A model generated the notes under the pieces. That model saw only the letters and a list, made by a program, of their open reading frames with translations. It did not search any database and had not been told where the DNA came from. The translations under genes and the position numbers were made by a program. From Candidatus Nomurabacteria bacterium (GTDB lineage: Bacteria; Patescibacteriota; Minisyncoccia; Phycocordibacterales; UBA9973), in NCBI GenBank assembly GCA_943357245.1, contig CALRGH010000006.1, positions 1 through 35,825 of the forward strand: a DNA stretch of 35,825 nucleotides, written 5' to 3'. Shown piece by piece: positions 17,266 to 35,825 of this stretch (positions are counted from its first letter, which is position 1; every line of letters starts with the position of its first letter).

Positions 17266-17730
17266 ATGAAACGAGAATTTTCTGAAAAAGAAATACCTAT
17301 GATTGCACAAGAAATCTTGCGCTCATTAGAAACTAGCGCTCACACCCTAGAACCTGCGCGAGCGCGTATCCTCGCGCTCGCAGGCGATCTCGGTGCTGGC
17401 AAAACAACACTTACGAAAGAAATAGCAAAACAATTAGGTATTACTGAGACAGTGATTTCACCCACGTATGTGATTATGAAAAGCTATCCGATTACTATTC
17501 CTAAACCCTATACCCTAGACGCTACGACCCTTGTCCACATTGATGCCTATCGTTTAGAAAGCGACGATGAACTCGCTCGTCTCGGGTGGAGCGAGTTAAT
17601 CAGTGATCCGAAAAATCTCATCATTATCGAATGGCCAGAAAAAGTGAAAAATTTGATTCCAGAGAATTCTATTTGGATACGATTGGCACACACAGAAGAC
17701 TCTAAAAGGGTTATCGAAATCAATTCTTAA
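17266..17730 (+). CDS. tsaE: tRNA threonylcarbamoyladenosine biosynthesis ATPase TsaE
   Basis: LAGDLGAGKTTLTKEIAKQLG, SPTYVIMKSY, HIDAYRLESDDELARLGWSEL, IIIEWPEKV. Confidence 0.94.
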   Translation: MKREFSEKEIPMIAQEILRSLETSAHTLEPARARILALAGDLGAGKTTLTKEIAKQLGITETVISPTYVIMKSYPITIPKPYTLDATTLVHIDAYRLESDDELARLGWSELISDPKNLIIIEWPEKVKNLIPENSIWIRLAHTEDSKRVIEINS

Positions 17731-18463
17731 TTACCCAGGAGGCCTTGCCTCCTGGGTAATATCGAGATATGATAAAAGCATGTCAGTCAGAAAAATAAAT
17801 TTTGTAGAGGGAGAATATTTTCATATTTACAACAGAGGAAATAGTAAGCAAAAGATTTTTCACGATAAACAAGATTATTTGTATTTTTTGTTGATATTAT
17901 TTATTTCAAATAATGTAAATAATTTTGATCTTAATAATTTTTCAAAAAAAGAAAACGCCTTTAATGTTAAAAGAAGCAAAGAAATTGTTGCCATTGGTGC
18001 ATATTGTTTGATGCCGAACCACTTTCATGTACTTATCACTCAGATTGAAGATGGTGGTATTAGTAAATTTATGCAAAAACTATCAACGGCCTATGCTATG
18101 TATTACAACAAAAAGTATAAGAGAACAGGGAGTCTTTTTGAAGGAAAATTTAAAGCTGAACATGTTGATACTGATGTATATTTAAAATATATATTTTCAT
18201 ATATTCATTTAAACCCCATTAAACTAATTTATCCAAAGTGGAAAAAAGAGGGGATTACGAACAAAAAAGAAGCATTGCACTATTTGGATTCATATGAGTA
18301 TTCAAGTTACCGCGACTTTTTAGGAAAAGATAGAAAATATAAAAATATCATAAACATCAAACCATTCCCACAATATTTTTCAAAAAAGAATTCTTTTCAA
18401 AAAGAAATAATGGACTGGATTAACTATGGAGAGTAACACCCAGGAGGCAAGGCCTCCTGGGTG
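17730..18463 (+). mobile_element. REP/RayT-type unit: Y1 transposase gene between mirror-image palindromes
   Basis: Palindrome 17730-17760 (core ACCCAGGAGGCCTTGCCTCCTGGGT) and palindrome 18437-18463 (core ACCCAGGAGGCAAGGCCTCCTGGGT, the exact reverse complement) bracket the transposase ORF. Confidence 0.8.
17780..18436 (+). CDS. REP-associated tyrosine transposase (TnpA_REP/RayT, IS200-like Y1 HUH family)
   Basis: YFHIYNRGNSKQKIF, AYCLMPNHFHVLI (HUH), YKRTGSLFEGKFKAEHVDTDVYLKYIFSYIHLNPIK. Confidence 0.93.
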   Translation: MSVRKINFVEGEYFHIYNRGNSKQKIFHDKQDYLYFLLILFISNNVNNFDLNNFSKKENAFNVKRSKEIVAIGAYCLMPNHFHVLITQIEDGGISKFMQKLSTAYAMYYNKKYKRTGSLFEGKFKAEHVDTDVYLKYIFSYIHLNPIKLIYPKWKKEGITNKKEALHYLDSYEYSSYRDFLGKDRKYKNIINIKPFPQYFSKKNSFQKEIMDWINYGE

Positions 18464-24526: not shown

Positions 24527-24760
24527 TCATGCTTTGAGTATACCAAAACAATACATTTTGTCGTCGAAGACATTTCTTGATTTTATGTCATAAATATGTT
24601 ACTTTTGCAGTATTCAATTATCACTTGTTTCCCTAAAACATTTTGTTTCAAAATGTTCGGGTGAACAATTTATCGGATAAATTGTTTTAACCGCCAGGAG
24701 GTGTCTTGGTAGGTATCAGCTGGTAGTGGAAAAAGTAAGGAAAAATATAAAGCACAATAT

Positions 24761-24833
24761 CCGCCCGTAGCTCAGTTGGTAGAGCAGCTCCCTTTTAAGG
24801 AGAGGGTCGTAGGTTCGATTCCTACCGGGCGGA
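24761..24833 (+). tRNA. tRNA-Lys (anticodon UUU), no encoded CCA
   Basis: Cloverleaf: acceptor CCGCCCG/CGGGCGG, anticodon loop CTTTTAA, T-arm GTAGGTTCGATTCCTAC. Confidence 0.95.
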
Positions 24834-24871
24834 CTAGGCTAAAAAAGTAAACTGCTTTACTTTTTTATGCA

Positions 24872-25061
24872 CTAGTCCGAGCCGCAGGCATGTTTCGATA
24901 CCAATCGGAACAGCCGAGGCGGGGTCGCGAAAAATTATGAGCGTCGGCGAATAATTTATTCGTGACGACTAGTCCGAGCCGCAGCGATGTTTTTCGTTTC
25001 GAAAAACCGCGAGGCGGGGTCGCAAAAATTTCGAGCGACGGCGAGAAATTATTTGTGACGA
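24872..25061 (+). repeat. Two tandem ~95-bp structured repeat units immediately 3' of tRNA-Lys
   Basis: Both begin CTAGTCCGAGCCGCAG, share GAGGCGGGGTCGC and GAGCG(T/A)CGGCGA; each has two hairpins with compensatory stem changes. Confidence 0.85.
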
Positions 25062-25101
25062 CAAAAGGAAAGTCGCGGGGAGTTCCTATTTTAGCTTTCC
25101 T

Positions 25102-25575
25102 ATGCCTAAAAAAATCCTCCTCCTCGACAACATACGCTCTTCCGAGAATGTCGGATCATTATTTCGTACCGCGGATGCATTTGGTATTTCAGAAATTATT
25201 CTGATCGGTATCACCCCGACCCCTATAGACCGATTTGGACGCCCAAATGCAAAAGTCGCCAAGACTGCACTTGGTGCAGAAAAAACAATTACTTGGCAAT
25301 CAGTGGGGACAGCAGAAGAAGTAGTTCTCTATATTCGAAAACAAAAATTGCCACTCTATGTACTTGAACAAGACACAAAAGCAATTCCACTTGCAAAGCA
25401 AAAAGCACAAGCGTGGGCGCTTGTGCTTGGTAATGAAGTAAATGGTGTTTCAGATTATTTGTTACAACAAGCAGACATCATTTTTGAAATTCCCATGCAA
25501 GGAGAGAAAGAGTCGCTCAATGTGAGTGTTGCTGGAGGAATAGCGTTACACCAGTTAGTAGAAAGTAGTAAGTAG
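25102..25575 (+). CDS. SpoU-family (TrmH-like) RNA 2'-O-methyltransferase
   Basis: LLDNIRSSENVGSLFRTADAFGI, LVLGNEVNGVSDYLLQ, IPMQGEKESLNVSVAGGIALHQL. Confidence 0.94.
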   Translation: MPKKILLLDNIRSSENVGSLFRTADAFGISEIILIGITPTPIDRFGRPNAKVAKTALGAEKTITWQSVGTAEEVVLYIRKQKLPLYVLEQDTKAIPLAKQKAQAWALVLGNEVNGVSDYLLQQADIIFEIPMQGEKESLNVSVAGGIALHQLVESSK

Positions 25576-25593
25576 ATAGTAGAAGCGAATAAC

Positions 25594-26858: not shown

Positions 26859-27035
26859 GGATTAGTAAGTAGTAAATAGTTAGTAGTAAGTAGTGAACAC
26901 AGTATACCAATAGCGAGGAATTTGGCGAAACCAAATTCTGGGCCCGCCCTTGTAAATGCTGTTTTTTTCTGCTATAGTGCTTCTGTTCGAAATTGTCCTA
27001 CTACTAGCTACTTACTACTATCTACTAACTAAGTT

Positions 27036-27676: not shown

Positions 27677-27748
27677 GGTCTTGTCGTTCAATGGATAGGA
27701 CACTCCCCTGCGAAGGGAGAAATGCAGGTTCGATTCCTGCCAGGGCCA
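27677..27748 (+). tRNA. tRNA-Arg (anticodon GCG), no encoded CCA
   Basis: Cloverleaf: acceptor GGTCTTG/CAGGGCC (with G-U pairs), anticodon arm CTCCC-CTGCGAA-GGGAG, T-arm GCAGGTTCGATTCCTGC. Confidence 0.9.
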
Positions 27749-27787
27749 CAATATGAAAAACCGACTCACTGAGTCGGTTTTTCATAT

Positions 27788-27937
27788 TGTGGCCCTGAGC
27801 AAGCAAACTGCTTTGCTTGCGTGCAGGAATCGAACGTCGGAGCGTTACATTTTGTTTCAAAATGTCGCGAGGTGGTGCCCAGACAAATTTTTGCGACGGC
27901 AAAAATTTAGTCGAGGGGGATTCCTGCCAGGGCCACA
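27788..27937 (+). repeat. tRNA-Arg-associated structured repeat with inverted and direct copies of the tRNA 3' end
   Basis: Inverted split copy TGTGGCCCTG...GCAGGAATCGAAC (27788-27835), hairpins 27847-27865 and 27882-27912, direct 19-bp copy GATTCCTGCCAGGGCCACA (27919-27937). Confidence 0.88.
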
Positions 27938-34431: not shown

Positions 34432-35825
34432 ATGAATAATCAAACCAAAAAGTTTTTTATATATACTCGCAAGTCTACGGACGACAAAGACAGGCAAGTC
34501 CGCAGTATTGCTGACCAGTTGAGTGAGTTAAAAGAACTCGCGTTGAAAGAACAACTGGAAGTAGTAGATGTCTTTGTCGAAAAGCAGACCGCCAAAATAC
34601 CAGGTCGCCCCGTGTTTAACGAAATGATAGAGCGTATGGAGCGTGGCGAAGCATCTGGTATTTTGGCGTGGCATCCCGATAGACTTGCTCGCAACTCGGT
34701 AGATGGAGGGAAAATCATCTACCTCGTTGATACTGGTGTCATTTCAGAAATGAAATTTCCAACTTTTTGGTTTGATCCGACACCGCAAGGCAAATTCATG
34801 CTCTCAATCGCTTTTTCGCAATCCAAGTATTATGTGGATAATTTGAGTGAAAATATCAAGCGCGGACACAGAAACAAAGTGAAGGACGGAATATGGCCTC
34901 AAATGTCTCCGATTGGATATGTGAACGAGAAAGGAAAAGGTATTGTGCCACATCCCGAACTTTCGATTTTAGTTAAAAAGACATTTGAGGCATATGCAAC
35001 TGGAAACTTCACTTTGCGGGAAGTCCGCGACAAATTTAACGCGCTTGGATTGAAGCGAAAAAGCGGTAGAGAGCTTGCGGTGTCGAATTATCAAAAACTT
35101 CTCAAAAATCCGATTTACACCGGTCTAATGAGGTATAACGGAGAGATTTTTGAGGGCAAGCACGAACCGATTATCACAAAGAAACTTTTTGATTCCGTTC
35201 AAGAAGTGATGAGCCAAAAATCTAAACCGCATAGCAAAGGTCTCAAGCCGTATATCTATCGCGGATTTTTCCGTTGCGGAGAATGTGGTTGCTTCATTAC
35301 TACCGAGCAACAAAAAGGTCATAACTATTTGCGATGTACCAAACGGAAAAATCCTTGTACTCAAAAATACGTTCGTGAGGAGCTCATCACTTCTCAAATT
35401 CAAAAGGAAATCAAAAAAGTTTCTTTGCCTCTCGATTGGACAGAATGGATGATTGCCGAAAATGCAAAAGATCGGCAATCGGAAGTCCAATCGAGTGAGA
35501 TTTTTTCTCAAAAAACAAAAGATGAAATTTCTCTTTTGGATTCCAAGATAGAGAAGCTGATGAGTGCCTATCTCGAAAGTGCGTTGTCGCTCGAAGAATA
35601 TCGTGAAGCTAAAAACAAGTTAGTTAATCAAAATCAGCTTCTCAAAGAGAAATTATCGGCTTTTGAGCAAAAAGCGAATAATCGGTTCGAACTTACCGAA
35701 AAGTTTTTGAAATACAATATGGAATTGGCAAACGACCGAACAAATGAGAAAAATACTCATTTGTTCAAAAAAGTCGGTTCGAACTTTCAAATTAAGGATC
35801 GAACCGTACTTTTTGAGCCACGCGG
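34432..35825 (+). CDS. Large serine recombinase (site-specific), truncated by window end; absent from the ORF track
   Basis: FFIYTRKSTDDKDRQVRSIADQL, WHPDRLARNSVDGGKI, recombinase domain SPIGYVNEKGKGIVPHPE, NPIYTGLMRYNGEIFEGKH, zinc ribbon FRCGECGCFIT...LRCT; open at 35825. Confidence 0.96.
   Translation, partial: MNNQTKKFFIYTRKSTDDKDRQVRSIADQLSELKELALKEQLEVVDVFVEKQTAKIPGRPVFNEMIERMERGEASGILAWHPDRLARNSVDGGKIIYLVDTGVISEMKFPTFWFDPTPQGKFMLSIAFSQSKYYVDNLSENIKRGHRNKVKDGIWPQMSPIGYVNEKGKGIVPHPELSILVKKTFEAYATGNFTLREVRDKFNALGLKRKSGRELAVSNYQKLLKNPIYTGLMRYNGEIFEGKHEPIITKKLFDSVQEVMSQKSKPHSKGLKPYIYRGFFRCGECGCFITTEQQKGHNYLRCTKRKNPCTQKYVREELITSQIQKEIKKVSLPLDWTEWMIAENAKDRQSEVQSSEIFSQKTKDEISLLDSKIEKLMSAYLESALSLEEYREAKNKLVNQNQLLKEKLSAFEQKANNRFELTEKFLKYNMELANDRTNEKNTHLFKKVGSNFQIKDRTVLFEPR

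Follow-up and report, generated by a model that had tools for sequence, protein, structure and literature searches.

A putative mini-element of Patescibacteria with a folded core, which regenerates the 3' ends of tRNA and protein genes

The attC sites of integrons are folded-strand sites, which are recognised by their structure more than by their sequence and possess an unpaired bulge as well as the R'' and R' boxes (RYYYAAC ... GTTRRRY). The integron integrase IntI acts on these folded sites, and integrases also join transfer RNA (tRNA) islands to gene ends. The attP site of the CTX phage is a single-stranded hairpin, which is used as recombination site by XerC and XerD of the host. In REP/RAYT systems and at the ends of IS200/IS605 elements, small hairpins occur with a short target-complementary arm 5' of the hairpin foot, and the RtT repeats at tyrT of E. 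coli are tandem units 3' of a tRNA gene, in which its 3' end is repeated. In this study, a structured unit was analysed that lies twice 3' of a tRNA-Lys gene in a stretch of 35,825 nucleotides (contig CALRGH010000006.1, positions 1 to 35,825; in the following referred to as the window). The stretch belongs to the draft genome (G000; 563,906 bases in 33 contigs, 88.6% complete) of a Candidatus Nomurabacteria bacterium of the Patescibacteria. Each unit possesses a core of two hairpins, H1 and H2, and in front of it an arm, T', which is the reverse complement of a target segment, T, in the gene.

The unit is probably a non-autonomous integrative mini-element of Patescibacteria, which regenerates gene 3' ends and would be recognised by the fold of a single strand. 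Its components would be a new 3' end replacing that of the gene, the hairpin H0 or H0b, which is often a terminator, T', which is complementary to the target site across the insertion point, and the core. The tRNA-sense strand of the DNA would be recognised in its folded single-stranded form, and pairing of T with T' would provide a double-stranded copy of the target site beside H1 and H2. A site-specific recombinase acting in trans would then join the unit to the matching gene end, and the second gene end, which is found behind the core, would be the displaced original.

Some of these properties are shared with the systems mentioned above. Like the RtT repeats, the element forms tandem units 3' of a tRNA and includes a copy of the tRNA 3' end; however, RtT is restricted to one locus and has no known covarying two-hairpin core. 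The element also gave no match in Rfam 15, in which only tRNA reached the gathering score and nothing relevant appeared at E values up to 5, in agreement with the original prediction made from the sequence of the window, which had recognised no named family. No description was found in the literature either, most subscription journals and preprints lying outside the coverage. The proposed folded single-strand site resembles attP of CTX, and the one tyrosine recombinase detected in the host genome is Xer-like, but the element targets gene 3' ends instead of dif and carries no phage genes. Genomic islands of tRNA and transfer-messenger RNA (tmRNA) genes insert into these genes, regenerate the target and have a displaced fragment at the far end (Islander, PMC4383910). 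The element resembles them in regenerating its target and leaving a displaced fragment at the far end, but differs in the small size of the whole insert (about 100-300 bp), in lacking an integrase of its own, in its conserved covarying fold and in its use of many tRNAs and also protein genes.

Fold and distribution of the core

The original prediction had described the repeat 3' of tRNA-Lys as structured, with compensatory base changes between the copies. The sequences it quoted (H2 of both units, CTAGTCCG twice and CGGACTAG) were all located at their positions, the two units being spaced by 97 bp, and the third unit proposed at tRNA-Arg was found at positions 27835-27919. The identity of tRNA-Lys likewise held, since the anticodon loop CTTTTAA reads TTT; the label 'tRNA-Stop (tta)' assigned by ARAGORN is due to a wrong anticodon.

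In an alignment of 15 copies of the host genome, which was calculated with MAFFT without a structure model, 22 of the 23 predicted pairs were changed on both sides. Compensatory changes were found in all 23 pairs among 104 copies from relatives. This larger alignment was fitted to the model and is therefore biased towards it; 96.7% of its cells were paired, in comparison to 70.6% after shuffling and only 40-52% when the partners were slid by 1-3 columns. These values are far above chance, and the proposed selection on the fold rather than on the sequence is strongly supported. Of the three outcomes that would have refuted the original prediction, none was obtained: copies lie beside further tRNA genes, the larger alignment shows strong covariation, and no known class in Rfam matches. 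H2 typically reads GGTCGCG ... CGTGACC; it contains a bulge of one base and in most cases ends in a tip of GC, a tetraloop and GC. Beyond what had been predicted, the folding strand can be assigned: G-T occurred in 138 cells and A-C in 20 cells of 182 distinct copies, and this excess of G·U over A·C indicates that the tRNA-sense strand is the folding strand under selection.

Further copies beside tRNA genes, for which the original prediction had suggested a search, were detected with the covariance model R1 (its E-values are rough). At least 18 strong copies are present in the host genome, in addition to more divergent units 3' of tRNA-Tyr and tRNA-Gln, and the element lies beside about 13 of its 31 tRNA genes. 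Within the same family, 86 of the 100 genomes searched carry copies (1 to 18 each), and across the phylum 25 of 241 do; the number ranges from 0 to 18 between relatives, which are represented by draft genomes and contigs of metagenome-assembled genomes (MAGs). Although genomes of Patescibacteria are very small, they retain as many as 18 copies of the element. Exact matches to the core pattern in named records came from MAGs of Candidatus Paceibacterota and Candidatus Nomurabacteria. Scans of IMG/VR with the core patterns revealed no element, and the sole 18-mer match (L261) scored nothing with the model.

A tRNA gene on the same strand was found at most 300 nt upstream of 123 of the 157 distinct copies, and one on the opposite strand in no case. 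Beside tRNAs, the element occupies tmRNA and the 3' ends of topA, rplL, rpsI and efp, the last three names being our reading of the protein sequences. At rplL it lies 3' of the gene in two genomes which were fully read, and a third is similar; two units follow topA in a genome of another genus (G044). The same core occurs at more than a dozen different tRNAs and at several protein genes. Among the 157 copies, whose flanks comprised up to 2.5 kb, no larger island was found that ends in a core and has a distant target.

Target arm and regenerated gene ends

Read from 5' to 3', a copy consists of T in the gene, the hairpin H0 or H0b, T', H1, H2 and a second copy of the target. H0b with the loop AAACTGCTTT occurs in many copies, and a terminator-like hairpin is often located between tRNA and core. 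T' lies directly 5' of H1. Its complementarity to the tRNA 3' end had been noted before for the start of the unit (CTAGTCCG versus CGGACTAG) and is target-specific in most copies: an exact complement of T and T' of at least 8 nt was present in 98 of 157 copies, but in only 9 of 157 after the arms had been swapped between copies. The copies at tRNAs fall into two classes. T of the acceptor-end class extends from position -4 to +3 of the tRNA (e.g. CGCACAAG) and is separated from T' by a loop of mostly 34-36 nt; T of the T-loop class consists of GTTCGANTCC and the T-stem, and the loop often has 77-94 nt.

At the level of sequence, comparison of the loci demonstrated a precise insertion point in the 3' part of the gene, i.e. 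in the T-loop or at the acceptor end of tRNAs, in tmRNA, or in the last codons of topA, rplL, rpsI and efp. It likewise demonstrated one gene 3' end upstream of the core and a second one directly after H2. Because this second copy follows immediately (GTGAC|...), H2 is the exact right end of the unit. A direct copy of the own tRNA of at least 10 bp was found after H2 in 27 of the 123 tRNA-linked copies, in comparison to 0.5 expected; for tRNA-Arg of the window it amounts to 19 bp. That the units behave as insertions regenerating gene 3' ends, including those of protein genes, extends the original prediction.

The copies appear to be mobile, and filled and empty orthologous sites exist at two genes. 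For topA, 24 genomes of one genus were compared. G086, G076, G055 and G088 each showed an additional partial match to the C-terminus of topA, and precisely these four contain hairpins between both gene ends. Of the remaining 20 genomes, 18 are empty, one (G068) contains a remnant of T' only, and in another (G066) the gene runs off the contig. For tRNA-Arg(GCG), the host genome is filled and its sister genome G011 lacks the element, although the locus is also rearranged there. This rearrangement (L253, 213-1448) comprises an inverted tRNA-Arg and an adjoining alr-like gene.

The regenerated and the displaced ends of the protein genes differ by 43 synonymous and 4 nonsynonymous codon changes, and the topA ends of G088 by 19 and 0, respectively. 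Differences that are almost only synonymous are not expected of a freely drifting relic and point to import or to selection on both ends. Either the regenerated end may have been imported from another genome, or a reversible insertion may have kept both ends under selection; the new end of a protein gene was probably carried in with the element. The near restriction of the differences to synonymous sites also led to the rejection of a target-site duplication of the host's own sequence. When the left and the right end of topA were compared with their nearest relatives, no single donor emerged.

The copies at tRNA-Lys and tRNA-Leu of the host genome have cores with 99% identity and nearly the same H0b. 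One of them has GTAGGAGTCGAAC as T' and the other AGAGGACTTGAAC, in agreement with the respective gene. This joint retargeting of T and T' is the feature of the element with the greatest novelty. It would also suit an entry by template switching or reverse transcription, in which T' is written anew by fold-back synthesis on the target strand, and an arm in the host genome can indeed span acceptor and terminator with 28 perfect bp, broken only by H0b. Nevertheless, we consider such copying quite unlikely: the nearly exclusively synonymous differences between the ends fit an import from another genome better, and RVT_1 is absent from the element-rich genomes G010, G013, G003 and G068.

Another explanation is a host-encoded structured RNA. 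The core would then be a vertically inherited 3' trailer of tRNA and some mRNA transcripts, controlling termination, maturation or stability, and pairing of T with T' would compete with the acceptor or T-arm. The G·U excess of the tRNA-sense strand, the lack of copies in opposite orientation downstream of tRNAs and the nearly fixed hairpin spacing of the acceptor-end class (34-36 nt) are in line with this. It does not agree with the displaced gene ends and the empty orthologous sites of relatives, with the copies at topA, rplL, rpsI and efp, or with a copy number between 0 and 18 among relatives. Moreover, with a terminator-like hairpin often lying ahead of the core, tRNA transcripts would as a rule end before reaching it, which favours DNA over RNA as the folded molecule. 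A structured RNA is therefore regarded as unlikely, and an element integrating into DNA is preferred.

Candidate mobilising enzymes

An integrative element of this kind calls for a comparison with attC sites. The covarying folded strand with a conserved extrahelical base, the combination of a cassette-like gene end with a folded site and the arrays of units are all reminiscent of attC sites, or close relatives of them, moved by an integron integrase. However, the sole tyrosine recombinase of the host genome is Xer-like and scored 132.6 bits against TIGR02249, for which the integron-integrase cut-off is 265, and no integron integrase was detected in this assembly, which is 88.6% complete; for the host genome, the attC reading is contradicted. 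Furthermore, insertion occurs at many gene ends and not in an array at one attI, and inspection of the aligned cores by eye showed no R-box motif, for which no formal scan was run. Altogether, it is extremely improbable that the units are attC sites.

Y1 transposases (RAYT or IS200/IS605) are common in the family and could move the units as REP/BIME-like hairpins, with T' as a guide 5' of the hairpin foot. The small hairpins and the guide-like arm directly 5' of H1 resemble such systems, and Y1 genes were found in 64 of 86 element-bearing genomes versus 5 of 14 element-free ones (p=0.01; all association tests of enzymes with the element ignore relatedness). The association with copy number is weak, though (Spearman 0.19, p=0.057), and no Y1 match was obtained in the element-rich genomes G010, G013, G029, G040 and G042. 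The element differs from these systems also in its arms of 8-24 nt, in the lack of a matching transposase and in the regeneration of gene ends, which to our knowledge does not occur upon IS200/IS605 insertion. Mobilisation as REP-like hairpins is thus very unlikely, and a Y1 transposase was rejected as mobiliser because of the weak association and the different hairpins. The window itself encodes a RAYT-like Y1 transposase (17780-18436, + strand; NF047646, 45.5 bits, below the cut-off), which is flanked by a hairpin pair at 17730-17760 and 18437-18463 with the arms CCCAGGAGGC/GCCTCCTGGG. These hairpins differ from those of the element and are presumably the RAYT's own REPs.

Several points speak against an integrative mini-element moved by a recombinase in trans. 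A mobilising enzyme was not found, and the occurrence of the element is not tracked by any of five enzyme families. Like the host genome, most element-rich genomes possess a single tyrosine recombinase; at most one is present in 21 of the 27 genomes of this kind, none was detected in five element-bearing genomes, and Y1, reverse transcriptases, serine recombinases and IS110 showed no clear tracking of copy number. The joint change of T and T' at a new tRNA beside a near-identical core is not explained by simple integrase chemistry. In addition, all conclusions are comparative and drawn from draft genomes. Downstream of a tyrosine recombinase gene beside a copy in G068 (L184, 1247-2420), a tRNA-Lys is interrupted in the anticodon region; this recombinase was rejected as mobiliser, as it apparently belongs to an island in this region and not to the element. 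This island was apparently inserted into a tRNA which already carried the element downstream.

A more specific version of the preferred mini-element is put forward only tentatively and appears possible but doubtful. It would be a retargetable, base-pair-guided site-specific integration, widespread in Patescibacteria, in which a renewable T' pairs with the end of an essential gene, replacement ends are carried along, and an undescribed enzyme acts. If the mini-element is real, it would be a mobile element defined by a fold and not by a gene, which imports gene ends, and short stretches of essential genes could move between species. The target-changing complementary arm raises the question whether DNA integration can be directed by base pairing also beyond the guide systems known so far. 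For genome annotation, the element offers a source for the fragments of tRNAs and genes that are found displaced in these genomes.

Features of the window and neighbouring observations

The features of both loci are compiled in Table 1. The sequence AGTCGCGGGGAGTTCCTA downstream of unit 2 is an apparent right-end remnant of an older insertion, composed of a putative type-B H2 end and a decayed copy of the T-arm.

Table 1. Coordinates of the element and its target genes at the tRNA-Lys and tRNA-Arg loci of the window.
Feature	Position	Strand	Remarks
tRNA-Lys (anticodon TTT), target gene	24761..24833	+	Rfam RF00005, 70.4 bits; ARAGORN
T, target segment CGGACTAG, tRNA-Lys 3' end	24830..24837	+	
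H0, terminator-like hairpin, loop AAACTGCTTT	24838..24871	+	34 nt separating T and T'
T' of unit 1, CTAGTCCG, reverse complement of T	24872..24879	+	
Unit 1 core (H1 + H2)	24880..24968	+	R1 score 80.6 bits
Unit 1 H1: outer GCC/GGC, GGC/GCC, TGTTTCGAT/ATCGGAACA	24881..24920	+	
Unit 1 H2: stem with G-U pair, one-base bulge, GC(GTCG)GC tip	24924..24966	+	
T' of unit 2, second CTAGTCCG	24969..24976	+	
Unit 2 core (H1 + H2)	24977..25061	+	98.9 bits, top R1 match in genome
Unit 2 H2	25019..25059	+	
AGTCGCGGGGAGTTCCTA	25071..25088	+	direct reading
tRNA-Arg (GCG), second target gene of window	27677..27748	+	ARAGORN, Rfam
T of tRNA-Arg copy, GTTCGATTCCTGC (T-arm)	27728..27740	+	locus L021
Perfect palindrome: tRNA acceptor strand + terminator, 28-bp arms	27741..27797	+	
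H0b hairpin AGCAAGCAAACTGCTTTGCTTGCGT	27798..27822	+	
T' GCAGGAATCGAAC, reverse complement of T-arm	27823..27835	+	
tRNA-Arg copy core (H1 + type-B H2)	27836..27918	+	85.1 bits
Putative displaced original tRNA-Arg 3' end, GATTCCTGCCAGGGCCACA, 19-bp direct repeat	27919..27937	+	

Several tRNA terminators of the host genome are perfect palindromes which reach back into the acceptor strand (27741-27797 of the window; L009, 4464-4527; L010, 3236-3300). Degenerate tRNA-like fragments, which resemble the 5' part of tRNA-Lys, are located just 5' of both tRNA-Lys genes (window, about 24690-24745; L010, about 2828-2880). Upstream of tRNA-Leu(CAA) (L012, 1735-1835), the tRNA 5' end is repeated once directly and once inverted, and the two repeats enclose a hairpin, which mirrors the arrangement at the 3' side.

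Towards the end of the contig, a 490-aa open frame with a serine recombinase domain (PF00239, E 1.5e-20) was detected, with the domain at 34456-34893 of the window and onwards. Furthermore, direct and inverted intergenic repeats of the TAGTAAGTAGTAG type occur at 25559-25582, 26863-26900 and 26998-27031, and similar stretches were found at many places in the sister genome G011.
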